The translations under genes and the position numbers were made by a program. A DNA stretch of 64,000 nucleotides from Gluconacetobacter sacchari (GTDB lineage: Bacteria > Pseudomonadota > Alphaproteobacteria > Acetobacterales > Acetobacteraceae): positions 1-64,000 of the forward strand of contig NZ_JABEQJ010000013.1 of assembly GCF_014174255.1 (NCBI RefSeq), given 5' to 3'. The notes beneath the pieces are model-generated. The model ran no database searches, was not told where the DNA came from, and worked only from the letters and a program-made list of their open reading frames with translations. How positions within the stretch are numbered: position 1 is the stretch's first letter; every line of letters begins with the position of its first letter. This document shows positions 12,238 through 64,000 of this stretch, piece after piece.

Positions 12238-12258
12238 TACATGGCGGGGGTGAACGGT

Positions 12259-33131: not shown

Positions 33132-34403
33132 ATGTCATCCAGCAATTCCGCCCTTCAGGCGCGGCGCGAGGCGGCAGTGCCGCGCGGCGTCGGCTCGGCC
33201 ACCACCATCCATGCCACCCGGGCGGAAAATGCCGAACTGTGGGATGTCGAAGGCAGGCGCTACATCGATTTTGCCGGCGGCATCGCGGTGCTGAATGTCG
33301 GGCATCGTCACCCGAAGGTGATGGAGGCGGTGCGGCGGCAGCTCGACCTGTTCACCCATACGGCGTTCCAGGTCGCGCCGTACGAATCCTATATCGCGCT
33401 GGCCGAGCGGCTGAACGCGCTGGCGCCCTTTCCCGGCCCGGCCAAGACCATCCTGTTCACCACCGGCGCCGAAGCCACCGAGAACGCGGTGAAGATCGCC
33501 CGCGCCGCCACCGGGCGCAGCGGCGTGGTGGCCTTTACCGGCGGATTCCATGGCCGCACGCTGTTGGCCTCGGCCCTGACGGGCAAGGTGCAGCCCTACA
33601 AGGCACCGTTCGGCACCATGCCCGGCGGCGTCTATCACCTGCCCTTCCCGGCCGGCGATAGTTCGGTCGCCGACAGCCTGCGCGCGCTCGACCTGCTGTT
33701 CGCCGCGGATATCGACCCGACGCAGGTCGCCGCCATCATCATCGAACCCGTGCAGGGCGAAGGCGGCTTCCGCGCCGCCCCCGCCGCATTGCTGCACGCC
33801 CTGCGCGCGGTCTGCGACACGCACGGGATCAAGCTGATCGCCGACGAGGTGCAGACCGGCTTTGCCCGCACCGGCAGGATGTTCGGCATCGAACTGTCCG
33901 GCGTGGCGCCCGACCTGGTGTGCGTCGCCAAGTCGCTGGGCGGCGGCATGCCACTGTCGGGCGTGATCGGCCGGGCCGAGCTGATGGATGCCGTCGGCCC
34001 CGGCGGGCTGGGCGGCACTTATGCCGGCGCGCCGCTGGCGTGCGCCGCCGGGTTGGCGGTGCTGGACGTGATTGCCGAGGAAGGGCTGGTGGAACGCGCC
34101 GACGTGATCGGCGCGCGCATCCGCGACCGGCTGGACGCGCTGCGCGGCAAGCCGGGGCTGGTGCCCTTCAGCGCCGCGCGCGGGCCCGGTGCGATGATCG
34201 GTTTCGACATTCTGGAAGCCGACGGCAAGACCCCGCGCAAGGGTGGCGCCGGCATCATCTGCGCCCGTGCGGCCGAACGTGGGTTGATCCTGCTGTCCTG
34301 CGGTGTGCTGGGCGAGACTGTTCGCATCCTGGTGCCCCTGACCGCACCTGACAGCGTGATCGAGGAGGGGTTGGCGATGATCGAGCAGGCTCTGGCGGCC
34401 TGA
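33132..34403 (+). CDS. class III aminotransferase, 4-aminobutyrate type (GabT-like)
   Basis: This 423-residue PLP-dependent omega-aminotransferase most resembles 4-aminobutyrate/2-oxoglutarate aminotransferase. Key blocks are DFAGGIAVLNVGHRHPKV, FTTGAEATENAVKIARAATG, AFTGGFHGRT, EPVQGEGGF, and IADEVQTGFARTGRMF. The PLP lysine is in CVAKSLGGGMPLSGVIG. The start at 33132 is preceded by GAGGACAGGCGAG. It is monocistronic, with a terminator-like hairpin just after the stop. GABA use is likely but related diamines or ornithine are possible substrates. Confidence 0.88.
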   Translation: MSSSNSALQARREAAVPRGVGSATTIHATRAENAELWDVEGRRYIDFAGGIAVLNVGHRHPKVMEAVRRQLDLFTHTAFQVAPYESYIALAERLNALAPFPGPAKTILFTTGAEATENAVKIARAATGRSGVVAFTGGFHGRTLLASALTGKVQPYKAPFGTMPGGVYHLPFPAGDSSVADSLRALDLLFAADIDPTQVAAIIIEPVQGEGGFRAAPAALLHALRAVCDTHGIKLIADEVQTGFARTGRMFGIELSGVAPDLVCVAKSLGGGMPLSGVIGRAELMDAVGPGGLGGTYAGAPLACAAGLAVLDVIAEEGLVERADVIGARIRDRLDALRGKPGLVPFSAARGPGAMIGFDILEADGKTPRKGGAGIICARAAERGLILLSCGVLGETVRILVPLTAPDSVIEEGLAMIEQALAA

Positions 34404-40854: not shown

Positions 40855-41421
40855 TCACGCCGCCGCGGAATGCCCGGCGACGGTGGGCAGCAGGGTTTCG
40901 ACCTGGCGGCGGGTGTTGACCACGTCGCGGGCGAGGATGGTGCCGCTGTCGTCCAGCAGGACCAGGGTGGGGAGGCGATTGACTTGCAGGACCAGGCCGA
41001 GTTCGACGCCGGTGATGAAGGGGATGTCGCTCAGCGCGAAACGGTCGCGCATCGCGGCGAGTTCGGGGGGAGCACCGTCGCCGACCAGGACGGGGTCGAG
41101 GCCGCGTTCGCGAGCCACGTCGAGGGCGATGGGCAGGACACGTTTGCAGACGGGGCAGTCGGCGCCGACGAAGAGGAGCATGCGGATGGTGCCGGCGGGC
41201 AGGCGCTCGCCGACCGGGAAGGGCGCGCCGTCCAGCGTGCGCATGGTGATGCGGGGGATAGGCTGGCCGACGTCGAGGCCGCGCTGGGGGGTCTGCTGGC
41301 CGATGGGGGCGATGCGTTCGTGTAGGATGCCGATCTGGCGCGCGAGGGCCAGCACGACCAGCACCAGGGCGACGATGGCGGCGAACAGCAGCCCCTGCGA
41401 CACGATCAGGACGGTCATCAT
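40855..41421 (-). CDS. mauD: MauD-like thioredoxin-fold protein with CPVC motif
   Basis: MauD helps fold the disulfide-rich light chain of TTQ amine dehydrogenases. The 188-residue protein has one N-terminal membrane anchor (residues about 4-28) and a periplasmic thioredoxin fold with the redox pair Cys89-Pro-Val-Cys92 in FVGADCPVCKRVLPIA. VNRLPTLVLLDDSGTILA is also typical. Its ATG overlaps the mauE stop (ATGATG). It is the last gene of the amine dehydrogenase operon. A second, altered copy lies at 43163-43780. Confidence 0.88.
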   Translation of the reverse strand: MMTVLIVSQGLLFAAIVALVLVVLALARQIGILHERIAPIGQQTPQRGLDVGQPIPRITMRTLDGAPFPVGERLPAGTIRMLLFVGADCPVCKRVLPIALDVARERGLDPVLVGDGAPPELAAMRDRFALSDIPFITGVELGLVLQVNRLPTLVLLDDSGTILARDVVNTRRQVETLLPTVAGHSAAA

Positions 41422-41957
41422 GCGGAATGTTCCTCGGGGCCGGAAGTGGCCGATATCAGGTGCGACAAAGCGAGGGCGAGCGCCAGCAGGCAGGCGCCGG
41501 CGGCCAGCGCCTGGTAGCGGAGCGGCAGAGAGGCGGGCAGACCCGTGAGGGGGGGCAGGAGAGAGGCGGGGATCAGCAGGGCGCTGCGGGCGACGGCGGC
41601 CCAGGACAGGCGGGCGGATGCCATGCCGGGCAGGCAGCCGCAGGAGAGGTCGGTCCGGCCGCGCAGCAGGTTGATGGCCATGGCAAGGCCGAACAGCGCG
41701 AACAGCAGGGCGGCGCCGATGCCGGCAGCAAAGGGGGCGAACCCGGCCAGCAGGGATGCCCCCATGGCGGTTTCGGCCCCGGCGAGGACCCAGGCGGCGG
41801 GCTCCAGCAGGGTGCCCGGCACGAGACGGTAGGCGGCGAGCGTGGTGAGGAAGGTATCGTGATCGCGCAGTTTGGCGATACCGGCGGCCAGCAGCAGCGT
41901 GCCGATGCCGCCGGCCAGCAGCGCGCCGACCAGGGGGAGGAGGGTCGGGCCGGTCAT
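41418..41957 (-). CDS. mauE: MauE-like membrane protein for amine dehydrogenase light-chain maturation
   Basis: This 179-residue inner-membrane protein has about four or five transmembrane segments. The conserved block is GIAKLRDHDTFLTTLAAYRL, then LRGRTDLSCGCLPGM with the Cys pair that may relay electrons. In Paracoccus, MauE and MauD are both needed to make stable light chain. The start at 41957 opens directly into the first membrane segment. It is coupled to the downstream mauD and lies 28 bases after the cytochrome gene. Confidence 0.88.
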   Translation of the reverse strand: MTGPTLLPLVGALLAGGIGTLLLAAGIAKLRDHDTFLTTLAAYRLVPGTLLEPAAWVLAGAETAMGASLLAGFAPFAAGIGAALLFALFGLAMAINLLRGRTDLSCGCLPGMASARLSWAAVARSALLIPASLLPPLTGLPASLPLRYQALAAGACLLALALALSHLISATSGPEEHSA

Positions 41958-41985
41958 GATGGGTGCCTGCGGGGGAAAGAGTCTG

Positions 41986-42516
41986 TCATCTGGCTGGTCC
42001 GGCTCCGGTATATTGGCCCTCGCGCGCGGCCTGCGCCACGTCATAACCGTGCAGGGCGGCCGCCGCCGGGCAGGCGCGGGTAACGGCGCGTACGATCTGG
42101 TCGCGGTAGCCGTGCAGGTCGGCCGTGCGCAGAGGATCGGCACGCAGGGCAGCGATTTCGGCGGTGGTGTAGGGGCGGCTGTTGGCCGGCACGCTGGCGC
42201 CGCCGAAGGTGAAGACTACGAAGTTCATCATCCGGGCCAGATCCGCCGACGAGAGGTTGGCGAAGGCGACGTTGGGCAGGCGAACGAGATAATCCCGCCC
42301 CTCGGGCGTGCAGAGGAAATAGCCGACCTGCCCGGCGAGATCGGGCACGACCTCGCGCCCCGAGCGGCCCTGTATGCCGTGGCAGCCGCCGCAGCCCATC
42401 AGATAATGACCCTGCACCGCCGGAATGACGGGCAGCGGGCTTGCCACCGGGCCGGCGCGCGCCGGCCCCTGCACCGGCAGGATGGCAAGGAAGAGGATCG
42501 GGAATCGCAGACGCAT
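41986..42516 (-). CDS. periplasmic monoheme cytochrome c of the amine dehydrogenase operon
   Basis: This 176-residue protein has a signal peptide (RFPILFLAILPVQGPARA) and one heme-attachment motif, Cys42-Gly-Gly-Cys45-His46 in LMGCGGCHGIQG. A likely axial Met lies in LARMMNFVVF. Only one CxxCH is present, so it is not a diheme MauG. It sits between the light chain and mauE. The obvious role is to take electrons from the reduced TTQ enzyme, replacing amicyanin or azurin. A part in TTQ formation is an alternative. CAGGCGG precedes the start at 42516. Confidence 0.85.
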   Translation of the reverse strand: MRLRFPILFLAILPVQGPARAGPVASPLPVIPAVQGHYLMGCGGCHGIQGRSGREVVPDLAGQVGYFLCTPEGRDYLVRLPNVAFANLSSADLARMMNFVVFTFGGASVPANSRPYTTAEIAALRADPLRTADLHGYRDQIVRAVTRACPAAAALHGYDVAQAAREGQYTGAGPAR

Positions 42517-42554
42517 CGCCGCCTGGCGCCATCTGTGGGGGGCGCCCCCGCCCT

Positions 42555-43115
42555 TCACCCGGCCTGGCCGATGATGGCGGCGGTGGAGCAATGATAGGCG
42601 GTCGAGGCCGTGCCGAAGCACCAGATGATGTCGTTGCTGGCCTGGGGACGATAGATCGGCATTTCGCGATCGGCGGTGTTGCAGCCGCATGATTTCGGCG
42701 CGGCGCAGATGTTGCGGCCGCAGCAGTCGCGATAGGCGATGACGTAGGAGCGGCCGTCGTCGGGATTGCGGCAGGTGCCGATCCAGGAGACGGGCGATGG
42801 CTCGGTGCCTGGCGGGCAGGTATGGACGCCGCCGCCGCAGCAGCCGCACAGCACGCCGTCGATGGCGCAATGGCGCCAGTAGGTGCATTTGGTGGGGTCG
42901 GTGCTCTGTGCCCGGCGTTCGAAATCGGTCAGGGTGGCGGCCGGGTTGGGGGTAGGGGCCGGCGCGGCGTCGGCCCGACGTACCGGCAGCAGCGGGAAGG
43001 CGGGGGCCACCGCCATGGCCGCGCCCATCCGCCCCAGCATGCCGCGCCGCGAGGAACGGGCCGCCAGCCGGCGCGTGACGGCTTCGCCCAGCGTGTCGAG
43101 GAAGGAAACCGGCAT
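42555..43115 (-). CDS. mauA: TTQ amine dehydrogenase light (beta) chain
   Basis: This is the catalytic small subunit carrying tryptophan tryptophylquinone made from two of its own tryptophans. The 186-residue precursor has an unusual long leader with SSRRGMLGRMG, like known MauA leaders. By alignment with Paracoccus MauA, the TTQ tryptophans are Trp111 (VSWIGTC) and Trp165 (DIIWCFG) and the catalytic Asp is Asp130 (AYRDCCG). Many Cys residues form disulfides. I use the ATG at 43115, preceded by AGGAG, which matches the known leader. An ATG at 43166 overlaps the previous stop. Methylamine versus aromatic amine specificity cannot be read here. Confidence 0.93.
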   Translation of the reverse strand: MPVSFLDTLGEAVTRRLAARSSRRGMLGRMGAAMAVAPAFPLLPVRRADAAPAPTPNPAATLTDFERRAQSTDPTKCTYWRHCAIDGVLCGCCGGGVHTCPPGTEPSPVSWIGTCRNPDDGRSYVIAYRDCCGRNICAAPKSCGCNTADREMPIYRPQASNDIIWCFGTASTAYHCSTAAIIGQAG

Positions 43116-43162
43116 TGGCGAGTGACTCCTGAAGGTTCCGGGGACCGGGCGAGACGGCGCGA

Positions 43163-43780
43163 TCATGCCGCGCGGGGCCGCGCGTCCAGATAGGATTGCA
43201 CCGAGACATGGCCGGTTTCCCCGGCGACGACGAGGCTTTCCAGATGTTCGCGATTATTGACCAGGCCCTTGGCCACGATCGTGCCGGATGCATCGAGCAG
43301 CAAAGCGAAGGGCAGTTTGTCGATGCCGAGCACGCGCCCGATCTCGGGATCGTTGACGAAACGCGACGGCGGCAGCCCGAAACGGGCAACCAGGTCCTGC
43401 TGCATCGCGTCGGTATCGTCGCCCAGGCACAGCAGGGCGAGGGCTTCACGCCGCGCGAAATCCTGCGCGATGGGCAGCATCTTGCGGGAGATGGGGCAGG
43501 TGCCCGACACGAACAGCAGCAGCGTGCGCGTGCCCGCGGGTTGCGGGCCGCCCACCGTCAGCGCCGTGCCGTCCAGCGCGCGCAGGGGGTGCGCCGCCAG
43601 GGTCTGGCCGGGGGCCGGACCGCCGGACGTCATCAGCGCGCCGACCGGCGCCACCCTGGCGAACAGATGCCGCATGCGCCGGAACAGCAGGCCCAGCACC
43701 GGCGCCAGCGCCAGCAGCAGCAACCAGTCCAACGCCTGGGCCCAGGCCAGGACCGTCATCGATGCCGCCTGCTCCATCAC
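43163..43780 (-). CDS. second MauD-like protein with CPIS instead of CPxC
   Basis: This 205-residue protein has an N-terminal membrane anchor (residues about 12-33) and a thioredoxin-like periplasmic domain. The redox site reads FVSGTCPISRKMLPIA: Cys95 is kept and the second Cys is Ser98. It shares PAGTRTLLLF, IDKLPFALLLDASGTIVAKG and NNREHLESL with MauD proteins. The start at 43780 overlaps the heavy-chain stop (ATGA). It lies directly upstream of the light chain. A monothiol MauD could bind or trap the light chain rather than shuffle its disulfides; this is inference. Confidence 0.8.
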   Translation of the reverse strand: MMEQAASMTVLAWAQALDWLLLLALAPVLGLLFRRMRHLFARVAPVGALMTSGGPAPGQTLAAHPLRALDGTALTVGGPQPAGTRTLLLFVSGTCPISRKMLPIAQDFARREALALLCLGDDTDAMQQDLVARFGLPPSRFVNDPEIGRVLGIDKLPFALLLDASGTIVAKGLVNNREHLESLVVAGETGHVSVQSYLDARPRAA

Positions 43781-44952
43781 CCGTTACCGGCCGGGAGGTC
43801 GGGCGCCACGATCATCGACTGGGCGTGCGCCTCGACCGTGCGGCGGACGGCGCCGGTCCGCGCGTCGATCACGATCATCGTGCCATCCTGCGACGTGGCA
43901 TAGAGCAGCGGGGCGGCGTCGCCGCTGACGGCGATGCCCCGCGCGGGCATCGGCAGGTCGATGCGCCGCACCAGCGCATGGCGGGCGGGATCGAGTTCCC
44001 ATATCTCGGTGCCGTCGGTCTTGTGCGTCCAGTACGTGCCGACATGCATCAGCACGAACAGATGGCCGCTGGCGCGGTTCCAGGCGAAGGGCTGCTTGCC
44101 GCCGGGGCGCCAGGCCTGTTCCTGGACGCCGGTACCGGCCACGGGCTGGCCGGCCGCCGCCTGGATCGACCAGGGGGCCGCGATAGCGGGCTTCTGGCCC
44201 AGCGTGGCCGCGTAGACCTTGCCGGTATAGGAGACGAACAGCGCGTGGCCGGTTGCGCGGTCGACCAGTCCCTGCTCGAAGATCGGGTCGTTATTGGCGT
44301 CGAAGAACGGCGCGGTGTGGGTCACGGTCGGAGTGTCGCCACCCGCATAGCCGACATTGGTCAGCGAGCCGTCGCCGCACAGGCTGGAAAATCCGTTCTG
44401 CTTCCATGGAAAGACCAGGGCGCAGCCGGGGATGTCGACCGTGCGCGCCACGGCGCCCTTCGACAGATCGACGATCGTGACCGAGGTTGCCGGGCTCATG
44501 TCGAAGACATAGCCCCATCTGCCGTCGGGACTGACATCGAAATCCTGGCCTTTATACACCGCCAGCGCGCGGGGCGGCAGCGTGATCTCGCGCCGCAGGG
44601 CCAGGGTATGGGCGTCATATTCCTGGATCAGATCCTGCCGCGTGCCGTGATCGACACGCGACCAGATCGTGTCGGCGACGTAGAAGGTGCGCCGGTCGGG
44701 CGACAGCGCGATATTGCCCAGGATGCTGGCCGGCAGCGTGCCCAGGATCCTGCCCGCGTCGGCGTCGTAGATCGTATAGGCGTCGCGGTCGGTCGCCGGC
44801 AGGACCCAGTGTGCGCCGACCGCCGGCAGCGTCGCCACGTCGCTCTGCTCGGCCTGCAGGACGGGGGGCGCCGCCCGCGCAAGGCCGGCCGGTGCCAGCA
44901 GCAGCGCGGCCATCGCCGCGCGCCGCGCGGCCTTCCTGTTCCAATTCACCAT
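43777..44952 (-). CDS. mauB: TTQ amine dehydrogenase heavy (alpha) chain
   Basis: The heavy chain forms a seven-bladed beta-propeller that holds the TTQ light chain in the periplasmic enzyme. The 391-residue precursor has a signal peptide (ARRAAMAALLLAPAGLARA). Typical blocks are HWVLPATDRDAYTIYDADAG, FYVADTIWSRVDHGTRQD, WGYVFDMSPATSVTIVDL, and HLFVLMHVGTYWTHKTDGTE. This assigns it to the methylamine/aromatic amine dehydrogenase heavy-chain family. It starts 27 bases after the TonB receptor gene on the same strand and overlaps the CPxS MauD gene. Confidence 0.93.
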   Translation of the reverse strand: MVNWNRKAARRAAMAALLLAPAGLARAAPPVLQAEQSDVATLPAVGAHWVLPATDRDAYTIYDADAGRILGTLPASILGNIALSPDRRTFYVADTIWSRVDHGTRQDLIQEYDAHTLALRREITLPPRALAVYKGQDFDVSPDGRWGYVFDMSPATSVTIVDLSKGAVARTVDIPGCALVFPWKQNGFSSLCGDGSLTNVGYAGGDTPTVTHTAPFFDANNDPIFEQGLVDRATGHALFVSYTGKVYAATLGQKPAIAAPWSIQAAAGQPVAGTGVQEQAWRPGGKQPFAWNRASGHLFVLMHVGTYWTHKTDGTEIWELDPARHALVRRIDLPMPARGIAVSGDAAPLLYATSQDGTMIVIDARTGAVRRTVEAHAQSMIVAPDLPAGNG

Positions 44953-44979
44953 CGCCGCCTGCCCCCGTTGACCCCAAGA

Positions 44980-47550
44980 TCAGTATTCGGCGCTGATCGT
45001 GCCGAAATATTCCCGCACCGCGCCGCGCTCCAGCGACTGGTAGTCCCCGCCATCGCCGGACTGGCCGCCGATCGGGAAGCCGTTCTCGCCCATCATCGCG
45101 ATATATTTCTGGTTGAACAGGTTATAGACCTCGAACGCCAGCGTCACGTTCTTCAGCACGCTCAGATTGCCGAAACGGTATTTGGCGCCCAGATTGGCCA
45201 GCCAGTACGGCGCGATGCTGGTGTCGTTCAGATAGGAGAAATAGCGCTTGCCGTAGTAGTTCACGTCGAAATGGGCGGACGCGCCCTTGTATTCATACCC
45301 CAGGCTGGTCTTGTACATCAGCGGCGGGTAGGCGACCATCTGCTTGCCCTTGATGTCGCAGTCGCCATCGAGCGGGCAGATATTGACATGGTCCGCGTAG
45401 GCGAAGTGGTTGTAGCTGATCGAGTTGGTCCATGTCAGGCCGCGCGCCAACCCTTCGAACGGCTGCACTGTCAGCGACGCGTCGGCGCCCCACATCGTCG
45501 CGTGCTTCGAATTCACCACCGAGGTGACCGGGTTGTTCAGCGAGCCGACCGAGGCCGAGATCAGGCGGTTATAGGCATCGGAATGATAGCCGTCGACCGA
45601 GGCCTGGATCTTGCGCGAGGTGTAGCGGTAGCCGACCACATAGGAGAAATCACGCTCGTTCGGCAGGCTGTGCTGGAGGGATTTGAACGTGTCCTGCGAC
45701 GACACCGCCCAGGGAGAGACCTCGCCCCCCGAAGGCGCCACCATGAACGGGCGCATGTTCTCGGCGAAATCGAAATAGACTTCGTGGCCCCGGCCGAAAT
45801 GATAATCGAGATTGACGGCCGGAAGGAAGGCGGCGGCCGAGGTCATCGATCCGTTGGGCAGGCCCGAATCGGCACCGACGCCCGTGCCGTACCCGGCATT
45901 GACATTGCCGTAATATGCGCCGCCCGCCGTCGTCTGCAACACCGAGCGGAAGCCGTACGTCACGGTCAGCCCCTCCACCGGGCGCCAGGCATCCATCAGA
46001 TGGAACTGGAAGCTGTTGGTCGTCCACTTGAAGCCGTAGCCCTGCATGAATGCCGGACCATAGGTGGTGTAGGGGCCGACCGTCTGGAGCGGGGCGCCCT
46101 GGCCGTAGACCGGCTCGTTGTACCAGAACAGGTCGGCGCGCTGGGAATTGTTTTCATACCAGCCACCGGCACTGATGGTGTGGTGCCCGATCCGCCAGGT
46201 GAAGGCGCTGGTAAAGCCGAAGCGCTGGTAGGACGGCTGCCAGACCTCCTCCGACAGCGGCGCGCCGGTGCCCGGCGACGGAGTCGTGGGGGCGCCATAT
46301 GTCGCATGCCCGTCGTACGCGGCACCGTAGAACACCGTATTCCAGCGCAGGCGGTCGGTCAGCGCCAGGTCGGCGTTGATGTGGCCCAGGAAATCCTGTG
46401 ACGCCTGCCCGGCGTCATAGAACGCGGTTTCCGCGCCCTGGTCGGTCAGCGCCCAGGAGGCCGGAATCGTCGGGCTGGTGCCCGCCGGGAAGATCAGGTT
46501 CGTGCCGCCGACATTATAGGTGCCGGGGCCGGTATAATTCACCAGGCCGGAATTCACATAGGTATATTCCGAGGCATTGTAGCCGCCCCGGTAGTTCGGT
46601 GCCCAGGATTCCGTCCGCCAGCCGGCATTCTGGAGAATGCTGAGCGACTTGTCCGCATAGCCCCAGACCGCGGCATTGTTCCAGTTGAACGACGCGGTGA
46701 TCCGGCTGTCGCTGCCGACCGGCTGGACGAGCTTGGCGTTTACCGTCTGCATGAAACCCGGCGTCGCGGCGTCGTATTTCCGTTCGTCCGAACGCTGGTA
46801 GGCGATGTAGAATTTCGTGCCGCTCCGGTTCAGCACGCCGCTGTCGGCGCGGACGTAGGTGCGCAGCGTGCCGTAGCTGCCGAACACCTGCGAAACCTTG
46901 GCCGCCGTCCGGTCCTTGGGGTCGGTGGTATGGAAGCGCATCGTGCCGCCGAGGCTGGAATTGCCCGGCAGGTCGACGCCCCCCGCGCCCTGCGAGACCT
47001 CGACGCCCTGGATATCGTCGGAAATCCAGGCATCGGCGATGTTGATGCCGTTGACGCTGATATAGGTCTGGTCGTTGAGCGGGACGCCATCCAGCGTCAT
47101 GCCGATCGAATCCTGGAAGAAGCCGCGCACATAGACGCTGGTGCCCCAGGTATCGAGACCCAGCGGATCGCTGGAACTGAAGCTGACGCCCGGCAACTGG
47201 CCGACCGCTTTCAGAATGTTCGTGCCCGCCACCTGTGATTCCAGCATCGCGCGGGTGACGCTGGTCTCGGCGCTGTGGGAGGCATGGCGGCTGCCCAGGA
47301 CGTCCAGCGCCTCCGCCGCCGCGCGCGGCACGACCGGCTGGGCCGCCGGGCCCGGGACGTGGCGAGACTTCGGCGCCGCGTGCGCGGCCTTCTTCGCGGA
47401 CGGTGCCGATGCCGTGGCGGGCTCCGCCGCCGCCCGGGCGAAAGCCGGGGCGGCGATCAGGCCGCCGATGACGCTGCTCAGAACCGCCGTGCCCAATAGC
47501 CGAGCGCGCAGGAATTGTCCGTCTCGCACCCAAACCCGTCCTGCTCGCAT
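44980..47550 (-). CDS. TonB-dependent receptor heading the amine dehydrogenase operon
   Basis: This is an outer-membrane receptor of about 856 residues. The signal peptide (LLGTAVLSSVIGGLIAAPAFA) is followed by a Pro/Ala-rich linker. The plug contains ILKAVGQLPGVSFSSSDPLG and SVYVRGFFQDSIGMTLDGVP. The beta-barrel ends YFGTISAEY. I use the ATG at 47550, preceded by GAAGAGG; an ATG at 47595 with GGAG is also good and would add 15 residues across a run of eight G. It is 27 bases from the heavy-chain gene, so receptor and enzyme are likely coexpressed. The ligand may be an amine compound or a metal chelate. Confidence 0.88.
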   Translation of the reverse strand: MRAGRVWVRDGQFLRARLLGTAVLSSVIGGLIAAPAFARAAAEPATASAPSAKKAAHAAPKSRHVPGPAAQPVVPRAAAEALDVLGSRHASHSAETSVTRAMLESQVAGTNILKAVGQLPGVSFSSSDPLGLDTWGTSVYVRGFFQDSIGMTLDGVPLNDQTYISVNGINIADAWISDDIQGVEVSQGAGGVDLPGNSSLGGTMRFHTTDPKDRTAAKVSQVFGSYGTLRTYVRADSGVLNRSGTKFYIAYQRSDERKYDAATPGFMQTVNAKLVQPVGSDSRITASFNWNNAAVWGYADKSLSILQNAGWRTESWAPNYRGGYNASEYTYVNSGLVNYTGPGTYNVGGTNLIFPAGTSPTIPASWALTDQGAETAFYDAGQASQDFLGHINADLALTDRLRWNTVFYGAAYDGHATYGAPTTPSPGTGAPLSEEVWQPSYQRFGFTSAFTWRIGHHTISAGGWYENNSQRADLFWYNEPVYGQGAPLQTVGPYTTYGPAFMQGYGFKWTTNSFQFHLMDAWRPVEGLTVTYGFRSVLQTTAGGAYYGNVNAGYGTGVGADSGLPNGSMTSAAAFLPAVNLDYHFGRGHEVYFDFAENMRPFMVAPSGGEVSPWAVSSQDTFKSLQHSLPNERDFSYVVGYRYTSRKIQASVDGYHSDAYNRLISASVGSLNNPVTSVVNSKHATMWGADASLTVQPFEGLARGLTWTNSISYNHFAYADHVNICPLDGDCDIKGKQMVAYPPLMYKTSLGYEYKGASAHFDVNYYGKRYFSYLNDTSIAPYWLANLGAKYRFGNLSVLKNVTLAFEVYNLFNQKYIAMMGENGFPIGGQSGDGGDYQSLERGAVREYFGTISAEY

Positions 47551-47710
47551 GTGGCCTCTTCCCCCCCCAACGCGGCGTCGCGCGTTCATAGCCATGGACA
47601 TCTCCGTGAATGCAGTCTCGAAACAAGGACGGTCCGCTGACAAGATATATTGCGATCGCCCGGCGGCTTTCGCCGGAACAGATGCGCCCGCGACACACCC
47701 GTTAGTCTAT

Positions 47711-47737
47711 CGAAATAATGTGCAACAGTTGCTTTCG
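47711..47737. promoter_or_regulatory. nested inverted repeat in the LysR/TonB-receptor divergent promoter
   Basis: GCAAC-A-GTTGC (47722-47732) is a perfect inverted repeat, flanked by CGAAA (47711-47715) and TTTCG (47733-47737). It lies in the 262-base divergent spacer, roughly midway. It is the best candidate for the LysR operator, though it is not a strict T-N11-A site. Confidence 0.45.
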
Positions 47738-47812
47738 TTGCCCTCGTGGTGACAAAAAGGCACCATTCTCCTGATCGCACCAATCGTTTGTTTCCTTCGT
47801 TCCGGGCATTCC

Positions 47813-48763
47813 ATGGCAGACAGACGCGCTTTTCCGCCCTTTGGCCCGCTCCGTGCCTTCGACGCGTTCGGCCGCACGCGTGGCATTCGCCGCGCGGCGG
47901 AATGGCTGCGGATCGATCATGCCGTCGTCAGCCGCCATCTGCGCGCCCTGGAAAAATGGGCCGGCGTGCGGCTGCTGGATCGGCCCGGCGGGGGACTGAC
48001 CGAGGCGGGCAGGATCTATCATGAGCGGATCGCCACCGCGCTGGACGAGATCGCCCGCGCCACCGAGGCCCTGCGCGCCGGCGACCTGCCGCAACTGAGC
48101 GTCTGGTGCGTGCCGGGCTTCGCCTTTCACTGGCTGGTCCGCCGGCTGGGCAGCTTTCGCGCCGACTATCCGGATATCGACCTGCTGCTGCGCCCGGCCG
48201 ATGCCCGCGCCCGCTTCTGGTCCGATGGGGTCGATGCCGATATCCGCTACCAACTGGACGGCAGGCACCACGAGCCGCAGCCGGGCATCCGCCAGGCGGA
48301 ACTGGCCCGGCCGCCCGTCTTCCCGGTTGCCAGTCCGGATTTCCTGCGCCGCGCCGGGCCGATCCGCACGATCGGCGACCTGCTGGCGCAACCGCTGCTG
48401 GCCGAGGAGGATAGCGGCGAATGGCTGACCTGGTTCGCTCGCCAGGGCCTGGCCGCGCCGGGCATGGTTCCGGCGGTCCGGCTATGGCATGCCCATCTGG
48501 TGCTGGCCTCGGCCCGCGAGGGCCAGGGCGTGGCCCTGGCCAATCCGTTTCTGCTGGAAGACGATCTGCGCAACGGAACGCTGGTGCGGGTCGGGCCGCC
48601 GGAGGCGCCGTTCCCGGGTGTCGCGATCGGGGCCTATACGCTGTTCATCCCCGAAAATGGTTGGGACCGCCCCGCTTTGGTGCGTCTGCGCACCTGGCTG
48701 ACCCAGGTCGCCGGGGCGTTTCTGCCGCCCGAGGCGCCGCCGGGCGACCCCGGGGATGCCTGA
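47813..48763 (+). CDS. LysR-family regulator of the amine dehydrogenase locus
   Basis: This 316-residue LysR-type transcription factor has a winged helix at about residues 9-65 (FGPLRAFDAFGRTRGIRRAA, then VVSRHLRALEKWAGVRLLDR). The periplasmic-binding-protein-like effector domain covers about 90-300 with SAREGQGVALANPFLL. It is divergent from the TonB receptor/amine dehydrogenase operon and probably controls it in response to an amine or derivative. It is a clear paralogue of the LysR at 61978-62979. It belongs to the GcvA-like branch. Confidence 0.92.
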   Translation: MADRRAFPPFGPLRAFDAFGRTRGIRRAAEWLRIDHAVVSRHLRALEKWAGVRLLDRPGGGLTEAGRIYHERIATALDEIARATEALRAGDLPQLSVWCVPGFAFHWLVRRLGSFRADYPDIDLLLRPADARARFWSDGVDADIRYQLDGRHHEPQPGIRQAELARPPVFPVASPDFLRRAGPIRTIGDLLAQPLLAEEDSGEWLTWFARQGLAAPGMVPAVRLWHAHLVLASAREGQGVALANPFLLEDDLRNGTLVRVGPPEAPFPGVAIGAYTLFIPENGWDRPALVRLRTWLTQVAGAFLPPEAPPGDPGDA

Positions 48764-48793: not shown

Positions 48794-49573
48794 TCAGCCG
48801 GCGATCTGGTCGAACAGCGCGACGTCCCGGCGATAGAACGCGAGGATGCGCGCCCGCTGCCGGTCGGTCGGCACCAGGCCATGGGGCCGGCCCTCGTTCA
48901 GGTGCGGCGCGCGGACGGTGCCCAGTCCCGGCACCCGGTCGGACAGGCGCGCGATATCGTCCATGCGCAGCAGGTGCCGTACCAGGCACCGCCCGGCCCG
49001 GTCGGCGACGTACCAGGATTGCGGACGGAAGATATGGTCCATGCCATAGACCGACCCGGCCTGCTCGACATGATCGAGCGCGTCGTCAAGCGAGCGGAAG
49101 CGCATATACCGGTCGCGGAATCCGGACGCGACCATGCGGTCGCGGCTGCCGCCGTTGCGGGCATAGCTGTAGGCCGACAGGAAGCGGTCCACCGGGTCGC
49201 GCAGGATCGCGAAGCTGGGCAAGGCACGCGCCATGTCCGGCATCACCCCCTGATAATAGCGGATGGATTCGTGCGAGACCGGCTGGCCATAGACGGCGGT
49301 GGCGACCGAGGTCCCGGCATTCTTCGGCACGTGGATGAACAGGGCGCCGCGCCGGGCGATCAGCGCCATGCGATCGCGCCGCTTCGCCCCCATGGGCAGG
49401 CGGACGCCGGCCCGCCCCGTCCATTCGTGAATGTCCGTCGGCAGATGGAACCCCATGAGACGGGCCACATGCGCGAAAGCCCGGGCGGAAGGCGCCGCCG
49501 CGCGCTCCCGCTCGGAAGGTCCGATGTCCGTGGCCGCCTGCAAGGCTGAAATCGTCTTCTGTTGGACAGCCAT
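48794..49573 (-). CDS. sulfotransferase family protein
   Basis: This 259-residue cytoplasmic protein resembles PAPS-dependent sulfotransferases of the sulfotransferase-2/heparan type. The 5'-phosphosulfate loop is FIHVPKNAGTSVATAVYG (residues 79-96). The 3'-phosphate motif is ILRDPVDRFLSAYSYA (123-138). A late basic region follows. Targets in bacteria are usually sugars, lipids or surface polymers. GGGGGA precedes the ATG at 49573. It is convergent with the LysR gene; the methyltransferase gene lies upstream on the same strand. Confidence 0.8.
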   Translation of the reverse strand: MAVQQKTISALQAATDIGPSERERAAAPSARAFAHVARLMGFHLPTDIHEWTGRAGVRLPMGAKRRDRMALIARRGALFIHVPKNAGTSVATAVYGQPVSHESIRYYQGVMPDMARALPSFAILRDPVDRFLSAYSYARNGGSRDRMVASGFRDRYMRFRSLDDALDHVEQAGSVYGMDHIFRPQSWYVADRAGRCLVRHLLRMDDIARLSDRVPGLGTVRAPHLNEGRPHGLVPTDRQRARILAFYRRDVALFDQIAG

Positions 49574-50742: not shown

Positions 50743-52995
50743 TCAGAAATCCGCGGTGAAGGAGAATTTGTAGGTCCGGGGCAGGCCCTCCAGCAGGTAC
50801 CCGCCATAGGCCGAGGCCCAGTAGCGGGCATTGCCCACGTTATCGACACCGAAGCGCAGCGTGATGGGCTTGTGCGCGGTGACGAAGGTATAGCGAGCGC
50901 CGAGATCGAAACGCGTCCAGACGGGCAGATGCAGCGTATTGGCGGTGTTGACCCATTGCTTGCCGGTATTGACCACCCGCCCGGTCACCGTGCCGCCACG
51001 CAGGAACGGCAGGTCATATTCGATATTGGCGTTGATCGAATAATTGGGCACGCCGATCGCGCTGTGCCCGTTTTGCAGGCCGCCGGCGGTGCGGGTCAGA
51101 TCGGCGTCGATCAGCGTCGCACCCCCGTTGAAGCGCAGGCCGGGCATCAGTTCGCCATTGACGTTCAGTTCCGCCCCGCGATTGCGCTGCATGCCGTCGA
51201 CGGTGAAGATATACTGGCCGCCGCTGCCATAGGGCGCGGTATAGGCGTTGGGCTGCGAGATCTGGTAGAAGGCCAGGGACGCGGCAAAGCGGCCGATATC
51301 GTATTTGGCGCCGACTTCGTACTGCACCGACCGGTAGGGCGGAAAGACCTGCCCCAGATTGACGACGTTGCCCGATGCCGTGGGCCCCTGCGACAGGCCC
51401 TCGATCCGGTTGAAATAGATCGCGGTCTGGCGGATGGGATGCACGACCAGCCCGACGACGGGCGTGATCGCGTCCTGGTTGTAATCGGCGTTGCGGGCGC
51501 CGCGACCCGGCGCGTGGTAGTCGAAGCCGGCCACCATCAGGTTCTGGTACCGGAAACCGCCGGTCAGCGCCACGCGATTGTCGAAGAAGGACATCGTGTC
51601 GGAGAAGAACAGGCTATAGAGCCGCGTGCCGCTGATCTGCCTGGGGTCGGCGACGTTGCCGCCGGTATAGGTCTGGTCCGGCACGCCGGTATAGGCGGGG
51701 CGATAGAGATTGGTGGCGCTGTATGGCCACGCATAGGCATAGGCGCTGTCGCTTTCCTCCCACAGCGCCGAGCCGCCGGCATTGATCTCGTGCCTGACCG
51801 GCCCCGTCGCGACATGCGCCCGCACGCCGCCGCGCGTGCTCTTGTTGGTCTGCACGTAGGGGACATAGAGATTGCCGTTGGTGCTGTCGCCGGTGCGGGC
51901 GTCGTTGACGGTCAGGACCTGGTAGTTGCCCTGCTCGTGGCCGCCCAGGCCGCCAAATGCCGCATAAAGCGTGACATGTTTCGACAGGTCGTGTTCGACA
52001 TTGAGCATGCCGAAGATGTAGTTGAGGTTGTTGTAGGTCCAGGGCTGGCCGAAATTGGCGCCGGGCGAGACCGGGCGCGGCACGTGGGTGACGTCGGCGC
52101 CGAGGAAGATCGCCGGGCGGCCCCAATTGACCCCCTGGTTCTGGAAATTCATGTCCAGCGTCACGCGGGTCCGGTCGTCATGCCAGTCGAAATCGCCGCC
52201 GACGGCGACCGAATGGCGCCGTTCGTGGTCGATGGAATCGGTGCCGTCCATGCCCGCGACATTGACGCGGGCGCCAAACGCGTGATCGGTGCCGAAACGC
52301 CGGCCCAGGTCGACGCTGCCGCCCCCCATCGCGCCGCTGGTGTAATCGCCGGTCAGGCGGGTGATCGGGGCTTCGGTGGCGTGCTTGAACATCAGGTTGA
52401 TGTTGCCGCCGATCGCCGACCCGCCCGGTGCCGCGCCGTTGAGGAAGGCGCTGGCGCCGTTGAGCACCTGCACCTGGTCATAGAGCTGCGGCGAGACGAG
52501 CTGGCGCGGCGTGATGCCATACAGGCCGTTGATCGCGACGTCGTCGCCATAGACCTGGAAGCCGCGAATGATGAACATCTCGGAAAAATTGCCGTAGCCG
52601 TAGGTGGTGCGGACCGACGGGTCGTTCTCCAGCACCTGGCCCAGCGTCTGCGACTGCTGGTTCAGGATCAGGCTGGCATTGTAGCTGCGGACGTTGAAGG
52701 GCACGTCGATCCCCTTCTTGTCGCCCAGCACGCCGAGTTGGCCGCCGCTGGAAACCTGCATCTGGTTGCGGCGCTTGGCCTCGACCACGATGGTTTCATC
52801 GCGCGTCGCCGCCGGCGATCCGGCCGGCAGGGCCGCGGGGGCTGCCGCCCCGCCATCGGCCTTCCTGCCCTTGGCCGGTTTGCCGGCGGCCGCGTGGGCG
52901 ACCCCATGCGACGACACGCCGGCCAGCAATGCCAGCAGCGCCAGGTTGAGGGGCTTCCTGTGCCGGGCACGGGTCGGGTGGCAGGTCTTCCGCAT
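50743..52995 (-). CDS. TonB-dependent siderophore-type receptor
   Basis: This 750-residue outer-membrane receptor is of the FhuE/FpvA-like siderophore group. It has a signal peptide (LALLALLAGVSSHGVAHA) and a plug with ETIVVEAKRR, VPFNVRSYNASLILNQQSQT, VLENDPSVR and MFIIRGFQVYGDDVAINGLY. NGASAFLNGAAPGGSAIGGN follows, a block frequent in this group. The barrel ends LPRTYKFSFTADF. No extra signalling domain is seen before the plug. The start is the ATG at 52995. An AraC-family gene lies directly upstream on the same strand and probably controls it in response to iron or the siderophore. Confidence 0.9.
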   Translation of the reverse strand: MRKTCHPTRARHRKPLNLALLALLAGVSSHGVAHAAAGKPAKGRKADGGAAAPAALPAGSPAATRDETIVVEAKRRNQMQVSSGGQLGVLGDKKGIDVPFNVRSYNASLILNQQSQTLGQVLENDPSVRTTYGYGNFSEMFIIRGFQVYGDDVAINGLYGITPRQLVSPQLYDQVQVLNGASAFLNGAAPGGSAIGGNINLMFKHATEAPITRLTGDYTSGAMGGGSVDLGRRFGTDHAFGARVNVAGMDGTDSIDHERRHSVAVGGDFDWHDDRTRVTLDMNFQNQGVNWGRPAIFLGADVTHVPRPVSPGANFGQPWTYNNLNYIFGMLNVEHDLSKHVTLYAAFGGLGGHEQGNYQVLTVNDARTGDSTNGNLYVPYVQTNKSTRGGVRAHVATGPVRHEINAGGSALWEESDSAYAYAWPYSATNLYRPAYTGVPDQTYTGGNVADPRQISGTRLYSLFFSDTMSFFDNRVALTGGFRYQNLMVAGFDYHAPGRGARNADYNQDAITPVVGLVVHPIRQTAIYFNRIEGLSQGPTASGNVVNLGQVFPPYRSVQYEVGAKYDIGRFAASLAFYQISQPNAYTAPYGSGGQYIFTVDGMQRNRGAELNVNGELMPGLRFNGGATLIDADLTRTAGGLQNGHSAIGVPNYSINANIEYDLPFLRGGTVTGRVVNTGKQWVNTANTLHLPVWTRFDLGARYTFVTAHKPITLRFGVDNVGNARYWASAYGGYLLEGLPRTYKFSFTADF

Positions 52996-53019
52996 TGTGG
53001 GGGGCACTCGCGATGCTGG

Positions 53020-60880: not shown

Positions 60881-61981
60881 ATGACCATGGACCAGATCAC
60901 CCTCGCCGCGCGCGCCGATGCCGGAATCGGCGCCCCCGATCTGCGCACGGTCGATTGCGATCCCGATTTCTGGTACCCCGTGGCCTGGTCGCGCGAGCTG
61001 AAGGCGGGCAAGACCATCGGCACCCGCTATGCCGGCCTGCCGATCGCGCTGGTGCGGCCCGTCGAGGGCGCGGTCTTCGCCCTGGAAGATCGCTGCGCCC
61101 ACCGGCAGGTGCCGCTGAGCAAGGGCACGGTGACGGGCCAGGCGGTGCAATGCTGCTATCATGGCTGGGCGTACGGGCGGTCGGGCCGGTGCATCGACGT
61201 GCCGTACCTGGGCAAGGGCAAGCTGCCCAACGGCGTGCGGAGCTATCCCTGCCGCGAGCAGGGCGGGCTGATCTTCATCTTCCCCGGCGATGCCGACAAG
61301 GCCGAATCCGTGCCCCTGCCCAGGCTGGCGCATGTCGGCGACCCCGCGTTCCGCACCCGGCAATTCGGCCCCCGCGTGGCCTGCCACTATACCTTCATGC
61401 ATGAGAACCTGATGGACATGAACCATCAGTTCCTGCATCGCCGCCAGATGGGCCAGATCCGCGCGCGCTTCCTGGGCCAGGACCGGGGCGAGGATTTCGT
61501 CGAGGCGCGCTACAGCTTCGCGCGCACCGACACCCGCCAGCCGCTGGCCGAGGCGCTGATCTTCGGCCGCCACCGCGACCTGAAGGGACGCGAGCAGCCG
61601 GTGGAGGAAGTGGTGACGGTGCGGACCGAGTATCCGTACCAGACGCTGCGGATCGTCGACAAGGACGGCGACCTGATGATGGATCTGTGGGTGGCCTATG
61701 TGCCGCAGAGCGCCGACCAGCGCACCAGCCGCGCCTTCGGCCTGCTGTCGGTGCGCCGCCCCGGGATTCCGTTCCTGATCGACCTGATCTGGCCGGCGCT
61801 GGCGGTCTTCACCAACCGGATCTTCGAGGAGGACCGCGAGGTGGTGGAACTGGAGCAGCAGGCATGGGATGCCCAGGGCGGCGACCGGAACCGCGAGGTC
61901 TTTCCGGTGGTCAACCATCTGCGCGCGCTGCTGACGCGCTGCGGCGTGCCGGGCAGCGGGCCCGATCGCGGCAGCCGTTAA
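60881..61981 (+). CDS. Rieske-type aromatic-ring oxygenase, large subunit
   Basis: This 366-residue Rieske non-heme iron oxygenase has its [2Fe-2S] cluster bound by Cys72-x-His74 (CAH) and Cys91-x2-His94 (CCYHGW). The mononuclear iron site lies in ENLMDMNHQFLHRR, with Asp179, His182 and His186. The reductase/ferredoxin partner is not adjacent. The family carries out hydroxylation, demethylation or amine oxidation; the substrate is unknown. The stop shares the TTAA at 61978-61981 with the convergent LysR stop. The start is either ATG 60881 or 60887. Confidence 0.88.
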   Translation: MTMDQITLAARADAGIGAPDLRTVDCDPDFWYPVAWSRELKAGKTIGTRYAGLPIALVRPVEGAVFALEDRCAHRQVPLSKGTVTGQAVQCCYHGWAYGRSGRCIDVPYLGKGKLPNGVRSYPCREQGGLIFIFPGDADKAESVPLPRLAHVGDPAFRTRQFGPRVACHYTFMHENLMDMNHQFLHRRQMGQIRARFLGQDRGEDFVEARYSFARTDTRQPLAEALIFGRHRDLKGREQPVEEVVTVRTEYPYQTLRIVDKDGDLMMDLWVAYVPQSADQRTSRAFGLLSVRRPGIPFLIDLIWPALAVFTNRIFEEDREVVELEQQAWDAQGGDRNREVFPVVNHLRALLTRCGVPGSGPDRGSR

Positions 61982-62979
61982 GGCGTCTCGCGGGCCAGGA
62001 ACGACGCGACCTCGGCCGTCATCCAGTTGCGGAAGCGCGCGAATTGCGGGCGGTTCCAGTTGCTTTCGGGTGCGATCAGGTAATAGCCGCCGATAAAGAC
62101 CCGGCGGAACGCCTGCCCCGGCAGCGTGACCCGGACCAGCGTCCCGCGTTGCAGGTCGTCCCACGCCAGGAAGATGTTGGCCAGCGAGATCCCCTGCCCA
62201 TGCCGCGCCGCCGCCAGGGTGATGCTGGCGTGCCCCAGCCGCCCGAACGGCACGAACAGCGCCGGGCTGACTTTGTGGCCCGACAGGAAGATGTGCCATT
62301 CCTGGCTGTCCTCCGCCTCGATCAGCGGTTCGGCCAGCAGGTCGGTGATGGTCCGCAGGCGCCCCGCCACCTCGGTCGCCAGATCGGGGCTGGCCACCGG
62401 AAACATCGCCGGCCGCGCCAGTTGCACCTTCTTGAAGCCGGGCGGGAAGCTTTCCAGCTCCTTGTCGCGGAGATAGCGGATATCGGCATGCAGATCGTCG
62501 CGATCGAAATCGGGAAACCGGTCGAACGGCCGGACCACCAGATTGACCGACGGCTCGCTGCGCCGGAAGGCCCCGACCCGTCCCGCCAGCCAGAGCGAGG
62601 CGAAGCCCGAGACGCAACTGATGCGGATCGACTCGTCCATGCGCGGGCGCAGCCGCTCGGTCGCGTGCGACAGGCCATCGAGCGCCCTGATGATCTCCTC
62701 GTGATAGGCAAGGCCCTTTTGCGTCAGCGTGCCGCTGGCCCGGTCGATCAACGCGACCCCGACCCAGTCTTCCAGCGTGCGCAGGTGGCGGCCGACGATC
62801 GTATGGCTGACGCCCAGATATTCCGCCGCCTTGCGTACGCCGCCGGCATGGCCATAGGCCGCAAAGGCGCGCAAGGCCCCGAAAGGGGGAAGCAGAAGCC
62901 GTTTCTTCGTCGACACGATCTGGTCCGCCAGGCTGTCCGGGGCAAGCTTACGGGCCGGCGGCAGGCGCTGTAAAGCCAT
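61978..62979 (-). CDS. LysR-family regulator divergent from the last TonB receptor
   Basis: This is a LysR-type regulator of about 333 residues. The winged helix (about residues 30-90) reads FGALRAFAAYGHAGGVRKAA and IVGRHLRTLEDWVGVALIDR. The effector domain has AARHGQGISLANIFLAWDDL and GGYYLIAPESNWNRPQF. These blocks match the LysR at 47813-48763 closely, so the two are paralogues. A 30-residue N-terminal tail precedes the usual domain start and the true start may be internal. It is convergent with the Rieske gene and divergent from the TonB receptor. Confidence 0.9.
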   Translation of the reverse strand: MALQRLPPARKLAPDSLADQIVSTKKRLLLPPFGALRAFAAYGHAGGVRKAAEYLGVSHTIVGRHLRTLEDWVGVALIDRASGTLTQKGLAYHEEIIRALDGLSHATERLRPRMDESIRISCVSGFASLWLAGRVGAFRRSEPSVNLVVRPFDRFPDFDRDDLHADIRYLRDKELESFPPGFKKVQLARPAMFPVASPDLATEVAGRLRTITDLLAEPLIEAEDSQEWHIFLSGHKVSPALFVPFGRLGHASITLAAARHGQGISLANIFLAWDDLQRGTLVRVTLPGQAFRRVFIGGYYLIAPESNWNRPQFARFRNWMTAEVASFLARETP

Positions 62980-63289
62980 TGGAAACCCGGGGTGCCCACC
63001 CGCCGGCAGGACGTCATCCGTCCCGGCAAGGGGCCGAAACCATGGCCGGCACACGCGGGCCCCGGGTGGAAACTTTTTGTTTCCACGCACGAAGAAAAAG
63101 TCGCTATCGAAACATTTTCAGCCGATGATATCGTTGCTCGTAATGAGATGGATTTATTTTCTCATTGTATGAAATTCAAAATAAAAATCAAAAAATACCG
63201 TCGATGCGTCATTATTCATCGACCATTCCACGGAACGACCCTGTGCAGGCCGGATATGGCCAGACGCTTCACTTCCAGGAGGTCCTGTC
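62980..63289. promoter_or_regulatory. AT-rich divergent promoter region with inverted repeat
   Basis: The region is strikingly A/T-rich between about 63075 and 63220. GTCGATG (63200-63206) and CATCGAC (63217-63223) form an inverted repeat with a 10-base spacer, a plausible LysR operator close to the receptor promoter. CAGGAGG at 63276-63282 is the receptor ribosome-binding site. Confidence 0.5.
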
Positions 63290-64000
63290 ATGCGATCACC
63301 GACCCATCCGCGACGACGGCTTCTGATTTCCGGCCCCATCATTGCCTGTAGCGGCATCTGGGTAGTCGGGCCGGATGCCCGGGCCGCGACATCCGACACC
63401 CCCGCCCATCACGCACGCCACGCCACCGCCCAGGGTGCCGGCCCCATCGCCACCCGCGTCGCACCGGCCCCGCCGGCGGCCGAGACCGTTTCCGTCACCG
63501 GCGGCATCACCACGCCGACCGGCGTACGCAACACCACGCCCGGCGGCGGCATGATGCCGGTTCAGACCGCCCCGAAATCGCGCAGCGAGGTCACGCGCGA
63601 TTTCATCGCCAAGAAGCCGGCCAACACCACGGTGCAGGCGATGCTGGCCAGCATGCCCGGCGTGTCCTACGCGCGATCCGATCCATACGGCCAGATCTCG
63701 CGCGGGATCATGGTCCGCGGCCTGAACTACACGCAGGTCGGCTACCTGGTCGAAGGCATTCCGCTGACCGACGCCGTCTATCTCAGCCCCGATGCGATCG
63801 GCGGCAGCCCGGACATGGAAAACGTGTCGTCGGTGGCGCTGACCCAGGGTTCGCCCGACATCAGCAGCCCGGCCTATTATTCGGTGGGCGCCGAAATCCG
63901 CACCACATTGCGCGATCCGGCGCGAACGGCCGGCGGCCTGCTGGAATCCAGCTACGGCACCTGGAACATGAAGAAGGAATTCGCCCGGATCGATACCGGC
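63290..64000 (+). CDS. TonB-dependent receptor, 5' part (runs off the window)
   Basis: The first 237 codons of an outer-membrane receptor are present, with no stop before the end of the window. A signal sequence (LLISGPIIACSGIWVVGPDA) is followed by a His/Ala/Pro-rich linker. The plug contains TPGGGMMPVQTAPKS, DFIAKKPANT, AMLASMPGVSYARSDPYG and MVRGLNYTQVGYLVEGIPLT. These blocks match the receptor at 9796-12237 position by position. CAGGAGG lies eight bases upstream of the ATG. It is divergent from the LysR gene. Confidence 0.9.
   Translation, partial: MRSPTHPRRRLLISGPIIACSGIWVVGPDARAATSDTPAHHARHATAQGAGPIATRVAPAPPAAETVSVTGGITTPTGVRNTTPGGGMMPVQTAPKSRSEVTRDFIAKKPANTTVQAMLASMPGVSYARSDPYGQISRGIMVRGLNYTQVGYLVEGIPLTDAVYLSPDAIGGSPDMENVSSVALTQGSPDISSPAYYSVGAEIRTTLRDPARTAGGLLESSYGTWNMKKEFARIDTG

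Follow-up and report, generated by a model that had tools for sequence, protein, structure and literature searches.

How does a tryptophan tryptophylquinone (TTQ) amine dehydrogenase obtain its cofactor when no MauG is encoded near it, and why does its operon begin with a TonB-dependent receptor? Both questions are raised by an operon of Gluconacetobacter sacchari within the first 64,000 nucleotides of contig NZ_JABEQJ010000013.1 (assembly GCF_014174255.1), the whole stretch analysed, called the window here. On the minus strand, the order is TonB receptor, heavy chain, MauD-like protein with a CPIS motif, light chain, monoheme cytochrome c, MauE, and MauD, with a divergent LysR gene. A first-pass annotation of the window had named these genes with their order and directions, all of which was borne out by the open reading frame positions and the Pfam and NCBIfam profile matches. 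We consider it probable that this is an aau-type (MauG-less) TTQ operon headed by a nutrient-type receptor that imports the amine, with a MauE/MauD pair folding the light chain and the cytochrome as a dedicated partner. The near-strict coupling of this cytochrome to the light chain is the main new result.

Coupling of the cytochrome to the light chain

The operon cytochrome (41986-42516, minus strand) carries a single CGGCH heme motif and no Met-ligand loop. Cytochromes of this kind are called A-type here, and their Met-ligated paralogues B-type. Genomes were sampled from the Acetobacteraceae (150) and from the family of G043, a Novosphingobium (199, of unstated completeness). In these 349 genomes, an A-type cytochrome was found downstream of all 37 light chains, on the same strand and at a distance of 99-762 bases (13/13 in the Acetobacteraceae, where six genomes had a light chain over cut-off, and 24/24 in the Novosphingobium family). 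Away from light chains, there were seven weak matches (6e-7 to 1e-9) and a single strong one; the latter is on a contig of a genome that is 66% complete, and another member of its genus has the enzyme. The best 28 candidates per genome were scored in the Acetobacteraceae and the best 21 in the Novosphingobium family; weak copies could be missed. The profile used (A5) was built from light-chain-adjacent cytochromes, and some of its source genomes were also sampled (that of the window, L034 = G018, and L043 = G087). Recovering those genomes is therefore no independent test, whereas the lack of strong matches elsewhere is one.

Loci around light chains were also fetched and read. Eighty of them are the best of 568 confirmed relatives and therefore lean to the window's kind. 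The 99 aau-type rows represent 98 distinct light chains, L108 and L043 being identical DNA. An A-type cytochrome was present in 96/99 rows (95/98 distinct), and a Met-ligated B-type cytochrome lay near 26/99. The three misses were L084, whose contig stops at the light chain, and two Komagataeibacter heavy-light pairs (L036 and L037), which have no cytochrome in the locus; we count these two as real exceptions that weigh against strict coupling. MauE and MauD were not seen in these two loci either. This genomic coupling shows the A-type cytochrome to be dedicated to the enzyme as its partner.

Heme ligand and possible roles of the cytochrome

The operon cytochrome has one heme site and, past the heme motif, no profile similarity to MauG. 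Among 89 A-type sequences (one row duplicated), no conserved Met column was found, the best being filled in 54/89, and conservation did not rise above 61% in any column of Met, Lys, or a second His. Met-Pro occurred in the expected stretch of 0/87 A-type sequences compared with 18/19 B-type paralogues. When the two types were aligned with hhalign (2.7e-11), the segment holding Met-Pro was deleted in the A-type. The nearest solved relative is Thermus c552 (3.8e-7 by sequence; fold E 1.3e-3, template modelling score 0.68), and this alignment has a gap in the same Met stretch. The cytochrome model is confident (predicted local distance difference test, pLDDT, 93.7), and its fold search gave no match under 0.001. 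A Tyr is conserved in 86/89 A-type sequences. Two cysteines are both present in 81/89 and both absent in 8/89, never single, as a disulfide would give. An ordinary Met-ligated carrier was rejected as a description of this protein, since it lacks the Met loop of its B-type paralogue.

The coupling fits both a TTQ maturase and an electron acceptor, and the lost ligand favours the maturase in part only. The cytochrome would thus either complete TTQ or take electrons from the enzyme. The acceptor role proposed in the first-pass annotation is uncertain because the Met loop is missing. We put slightly below an even chance the explanation that the A-type cytochrome is merely a dedicated acceptor or third subunit and that TTQ is completed by some other factor, one that did not turn up in this analysis. 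In its favour, the A-type is the only one of the two cytochrome types near most aau-type light chains; one copy accompanies each light chain even where the locus has no MauE and MauD, as at a third TTQ locus of this genome (L008); and the genome has an oxidase cluster with COX2, COX1, and a cytochrome c gene (by eye). However, a carrier without a Met-bearing loop or any well-conserved Met, Lys, or second His would be unusual, and no other maturation gene stood out in a crude clustering of the neighbourhoods.

The other role is bolder, and we hold it as rather doubtful. Here the A-type cytochrome would be the MauG substitute of aau-type enzymes: it would descend by duplication from an ordinary Met-ligated cytochrome c, would have lost the Met loop, and would use its open or Tyr-ligated heme to form TTQ by oxidising the precursor light chain. 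Its helpers in Acetobacteraceae would be a CPxC and CPxS MauD pair and an amine-feeding receptor. With a near one-to-one partner gene that has lost a heme ligand, the question of MauG-less TTQ can be put to a single gene.

Enzyme subunits and class of the cluster

The heavy chain (43777-44952, minus strand) matches PF06433 with 158.8 bits (cut-off 21; 2.3e-46) and the PDB sequences of methylamine dehydrogenase (MADH, 4.9e-40) and aromatic amine dehydrogenase (AADH, 1.5e-38). The light chain (42555-43166, minus strand) matches PF02975 with 175.6 bits (cut-off 25; 4.8e-52). Both subunits thus have the profiles of a TTQ amine dehydrogenase. By MADH numbering, we take Trp128 and Trp182 of the light chain to be the TTQ tryptophans and Asp147 the catalytic Asp. 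All three were kept in 92/92 covered rows (one row being the L108/L043 duplicate), with gaps there in 2/94. The heavy and light chains would oxidise the amine in the periplasm to an aldehyde and ammonia, as is established for the family. The methylamine dehydrogenase equivalog cut-offs were missed by both the light chain (186.5 against 196.85 bits) and the heavy chain (151.5 against 454.45 bits).

Hidden Markov model (HMM) searches within 9 kb of the operon light chain yielded no MauG, amicyanin, MauF, or MauJ, and the earlier remark that no MauG is visible here holds. The source genome gave no amicyanin/azurin (PF00127) match anywhere. In having both enzyme subunits, MauE, MauD, and a monoheme cytochrome but no mauFGJ, the cluster is like other aau-type ones, with a rearranged order and one extra MauD. 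In the five mau-type loci read (three Paracoccus, one Methylobacterium, and one Indioceanicola), MauG was present in 5/5 and an A-type cytochrome in 0/5. In the aau-type rows, MauG lay within 9 kb of 0/99 light chains (0/98 distinct) as far as the flanking sequence reached; such absences are partial because 9 kb on both sides was available in 64/99 rows, and 16 had <4.5 kb on a side. Mau-type light chains formed a separate clade (100%) in a tree that retained 29/102 rows after a crude position-by-position filter; L113 and L097 were skipped, their motif not being matched. By its gene content, the operon is classed as an aau-type TTQ amine dehydrogenase cluster. The absence of MauG is ordinary for this type.

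The light chain is rich in disulfides, and MauE and MauD serve its folding. MauE (41418-41957, minus strand, start inferred) matches PF07291 over its cut-off (3.6e-20). The two MauD-like proteins match TIGR02661 below its cut-off of 188.6 bits. The one at 40855-41421 (minus strand; 2e-39, 135 bits) has CPVC, the dithiol motif of MauD, and the one at 43163-43780 (minus strand; 2.4e-38, 131.5 bits) has CPIS and so lacks the second thiol. Among 104 MauD-like rows (two repeated), 23 have CPxS and the remainder CPxC. All 23, including the L108 duplicate of L043, are from Acetobacteraceae, usually with a CPxC partner in the same locus. We infer that the monothiol MauD is a folding partner; MauE and both MauD proteins would together fold the light chain, and how they divide the work is likewise a suggestion.

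TTQ maturation and diheme proteins

Since MauG was near none of the 98 distinct aau-type light chains in the flanking sequence available, its absence was rejected as a peculiarity of this locus. It is not a novelty either: the aau cluster of Alcaligenes faecalis was reportedly described without mauG by Chistoserdov in 2001. To our knowledge, TTQ formation in MauG-less clusters has been open since then. No MauG-free TTQ route was found among the open-licence papers listed. The excerpt of PMC7876137 in which MauG is compared with other quinone-forming enzymes does not treat MauG-free TTQ.

The whole PF03150 (CCP_MauG) family was absent from 14/50 and 10/20 light-chain genomes, or 21/67 distinct ones, all 21 in sphingomonad sets and all counts from genomes of unstated completeness; the single match of G016 was taken as MbnH-like by length only. 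Together with the lack of MauG near aau-type light chains, this supports the earlier suggestion that TTQ maturation relies on a distant or different factor. When the predicted genes of 83 loci were clustered, no extra conserved maturation gene stood out, and beyond the heavy chain, cytochrome, MauD, light chain, and MauE there were only lineage-specific neighbours. The gene calls were crude, and family 7 resembles antisense frames.

The genome-wide search for diheme MauG homologues that had been proposed earlier gave a divided result. None lies in the three light-chain loci of the source genome, but four PF03150 proteins are encoded elsewhere. Three are matched best by the NCBIfam model of the MbnH family, without reaching its cut-off, and one of them has an N-terminal heme domain. 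The fourth (contig C19, L013) is BthA-like, with E 1.1e-62 to BthA and 2e-33 to MauG, and a Tyr is aligned at the His-Tyr heme ligand. In BthA, Tyr463 ligates heme (PMC6405878, in excerpt). With the TTQ_mauG model this protein scored 101 bits and the annotated Paracoccus denitrificans MauG 97; the cut-off of 443.85 was rejected as arbiter of MauG membership, as the annotated MauG also falls below it.

These scores and the aligned ligand are what would recommend the distant BthA-like protein as the working MauG of this genome, an explanation that we find improbable. A homologue occurs in 6/6 light-chain genomes of the Acetobacteraceae sample compared with 22/144 others (Fisher 2.6e-5, uncorrected for kinship), an association that favours this protein and weighs against our main reading. 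Kinship may explain this co-occurrence. The best 10 candidates per genome were scored in this survey, and weak copies could be missed. The gene sits in a different gene context, it is kept in those 22 genomes without the enzyme, and 21/67 distinct light-chain genomes lack PF03150 altogether.

The TonB-dependent receptor

The receptor, first gene of the operon (44980-47643, minus strand; the true start is perhaps ATG 47601), has both plug (PF07715, 1.4e-11) and barrel (PF00593, 4.3e-29) over cut-off. It is separated from the heavy chain by 27 bases, and no minus-strand terminator-like site was listed between them in the terminator scan. One transcript for receptor and heavy chain is therefore likely. 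Four-base overlaps join the heavy chain to the monothiol MauD and the monothiol MauD to the light chain.

Among the best 80 relatives, 27 loci are Acetobacteraceae by title, and in 19 of these a member of the receptor family lies no more than 9 kb from the light chain. With H, D, L, C, and E for heavy chain, MauD, light chain, cytochrome, and MauE, the orders are receptor-H-D-L-C-E-D in Gluconacetobacter, receptor-H-L-C in Komagataeibacter, receptor-E-D-H-D-L-C in Acetobacter oeni and Acidomonas, and receptor-H-E-D-L-C-C in Asaia, at least four receptor-bearing orders in all. Receptors of window-type loci (n=16) form one clade (97%), and two further receptor groups occur at other TTQ loci. In this tree, 8/32 rows were under half filled, and the first receptor of L089 was grouped as "other" though it lies inside a TTQ locus. 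We read these data as a nutrient receptor family recruited to the TTQ enzyme more than once. Other TonB receptors were found in 35/83 clustered loci, none of the 35 from Acetobacteraceae; on Novosphingobium aromaticivorans pNL2, an annotated TonB receptor is upstream of a cytochrome and heavy chain.

Several findings weigh against an obligatory role of the receptor. The family was not seen at 8/27 Acetobacteraceae loci, one of them cut by the contig start, nor within 9 kb at any of the 53 non-Acetobacteraceae loci, and therefore the enzyme does not need it. Ga. diazotrophicus (L023), otherwise colinear, keeps LysR and the enzyme genes without the receptor. The family is also broad, occurring in 33/150 Acetobacteraceae genomes (1e-40; best 6 candidates per genome scored, weak copies could be missed) against 6 with a light chain over cut-off. 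Receptor presence alone therefore says nothing of an amine, and it was rejected as a sign of amine use. The receptor model is poor (pLDDT 54), and no ligand class can therefore be named from it; no PDB sequence matched the receptor at E 0.001. The earlier view that the receptor truly belongs to the system is supported by its recurrence, its several gene orders, and its clade, with the restriction that it is accessory. Its absence from orthologous clusters such as that of Ga. diazotrophicus, an outcome named beforehand as refuting, speaks against a fixed receptor-enzyme link.

Paralogues of the receptor in the same genome have varied neighbours. One stands in a cluster with a type III glutamine synthetase (over the TIGR03105 cut-off with 650.7 bits), a glutamate-synthase-like set, and an aldehyde dehydrogenase whose best models, below cut-off, are succinate-semialdehyde dehydrogenases. 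This cluster (L104:2377-10833) is perhaps another amine route. One has a choline dehydrogenase within 5 kb (TIGR01810 over cut-off), and others are beside glycoside hydrolases or aconitase-/hydantoinase-like genes (both by eye).

Active import of the amine across the outer membrane is plausible on this genomic evidence. The receptor would most likely supply the periplasm with an amine that is scarce or bulky, either free or in bound form. The alternative that it serves metal, heme, or cofactor uptake and heads the operon incidentally seems unlikely to us. It draws on weak matches to heme/transferrin receptor models, on a best fold match to PqqU from the poor model, and on the loci that have no receptor; it is opposed by the short spacing, by receptors of three groups that recur across several gene orders, and by the amine and glycan catabolic genes beside the paralogues. 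No link between such a receptor and an amine dehydrogenase was found among the open-licence papers listed. Amine import, if true, would put amines among the nutrients that acetic acid bacteria acquire through dedicated TonB receptors.

Substrate and metabolic neighbours

A 4-aminobutyrate (GABA) aminotransferase gene (gabT) lies in the window at 33132-34403 on the plus strand (TIGR00700, 538.6 bits, over the cut-off of 506.65) and might serve a later step of the pathway. Among 100 loci (one row duplicated), a gabT relative was found in 10, the window included, GABA aminotransferase or AptA relatives in 17, GABA-permease-like genes in 18, and both in 13. A MocR regulator, aldehyde oxidoreductase, and aldehyde dehydrogenase are neighbours at some loci. 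These GABA-pathway neighbours tentatively point to diamines. A diamine or polyamine such as putrescine is accordingly a possible substrate, though less likely than not; its product would be an amino aldehyde feeding the GABA route. Such neighbours occur in a minority of loci, the loci are related by descent, gabT is ~6.5 kb from the operon, and on Novosphingobium pNL2 catechol and ketoadipate genes lie beside the cluster instead.

Window context and other TTQ loci of the genome

The divergent LysR-type regulator (47813-48763, plus strand; PF03466, PF00126) is GcvA-like (NF008352 1.1e-54, below cut-off). Next to it is a sulfotransferase-family protein (48794-49573), kept beside LysR in 7/83 clustered loci. 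A second receptor near the operon (50743-53007) is of siderophore type (TIGR01783 over cut-off). At the window end (61978-63290), another LysR gene, 48% identical to that of the operon, and the beginning of a weak receptor match are divergently oriented. Elsewhere in the window, a receptor is directly followed by a PF00144 (beta-lactamase/esterase family) protein (9676-13545), and one frame holds transaldolase and phosphoglucose isomerase domains (22360-25227).

The closest loci are those of Gluconacetobacter dulcium and liquefaciens. Three TTQ light chains are encoded in the source genome, which spans 4.83 Mb in 114 contigs with a stated completeness of 100. L009 lies near integrase- and transposase-like genes (by eye); it comprises an AraC-type gene (also by eye), a heavy chain, MauE, MauD, a light chain, cytochromes, and a receptor of its own that shares 40% identity with the operon receptor. 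The receptor family is therefore at two of the three light-chain loci. This second, divergent locus (L009:5262-12790) and L109 (G087) have a TTQ set with receptor, then an RND-type efflux set (by eye), and their light chains have His at position 103, where 90/94 rows have Asp. The third locus (L008:7916-10647) holds two cytochromes besides its heavy and light chains. It has no MauE, MauD, or receptor, and its light chain would therefore need folding proteins encoded elsewhere. The oxidase cluster mentioned above (L099:418-3647) is a possible outlet for cytochrome c electrons.

Comparison with known systems

With the aau (aromatic/aralkylamine dehydrogenase) cluster of Alcaligenes faecalis as reported, the operon shares heavy and light chains, MauE, MauD, and a monoheme cytochrome, and no mauF, mauG, mauJ, or amicyanin is known from either. 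The annotated aau example on a Pseudomonas aeruginosa plasmid reads aauB-mauE-mauD-aauA-cyt-cyt. In contrast, the present operon has the receptor first, the order H-D-L-C-E-D, and a second, monothiol MauD, and in the tree its light chain does not group with the beta/gamma aau sequences. The LysR gene is no distinction, as an annotated LysR adjoins the Cupriavidus cluster. The mau cluster of Paracoccus denitrificans shares homologous heavy and light chains, MauE, and MauD; it differs in having nearby the MauF, amicyanin, MauJ, and MauG that the HMM searches did not find within 9 kb here, and the equivalog scores of our subunits stay below cut-off. Unlike the diheme enzymes MauG and BthA, the A-type cytochrome has one heme site, and the BthA-like protein of this genome is encoded outside the operon. 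The pyrroloquinoline quinone (PQQ) importer PqqU has the plug and barrel common to nutrient TonB-dependent transporters; TTQ, however, is made from the protein itself and leaves no cofactor to import.

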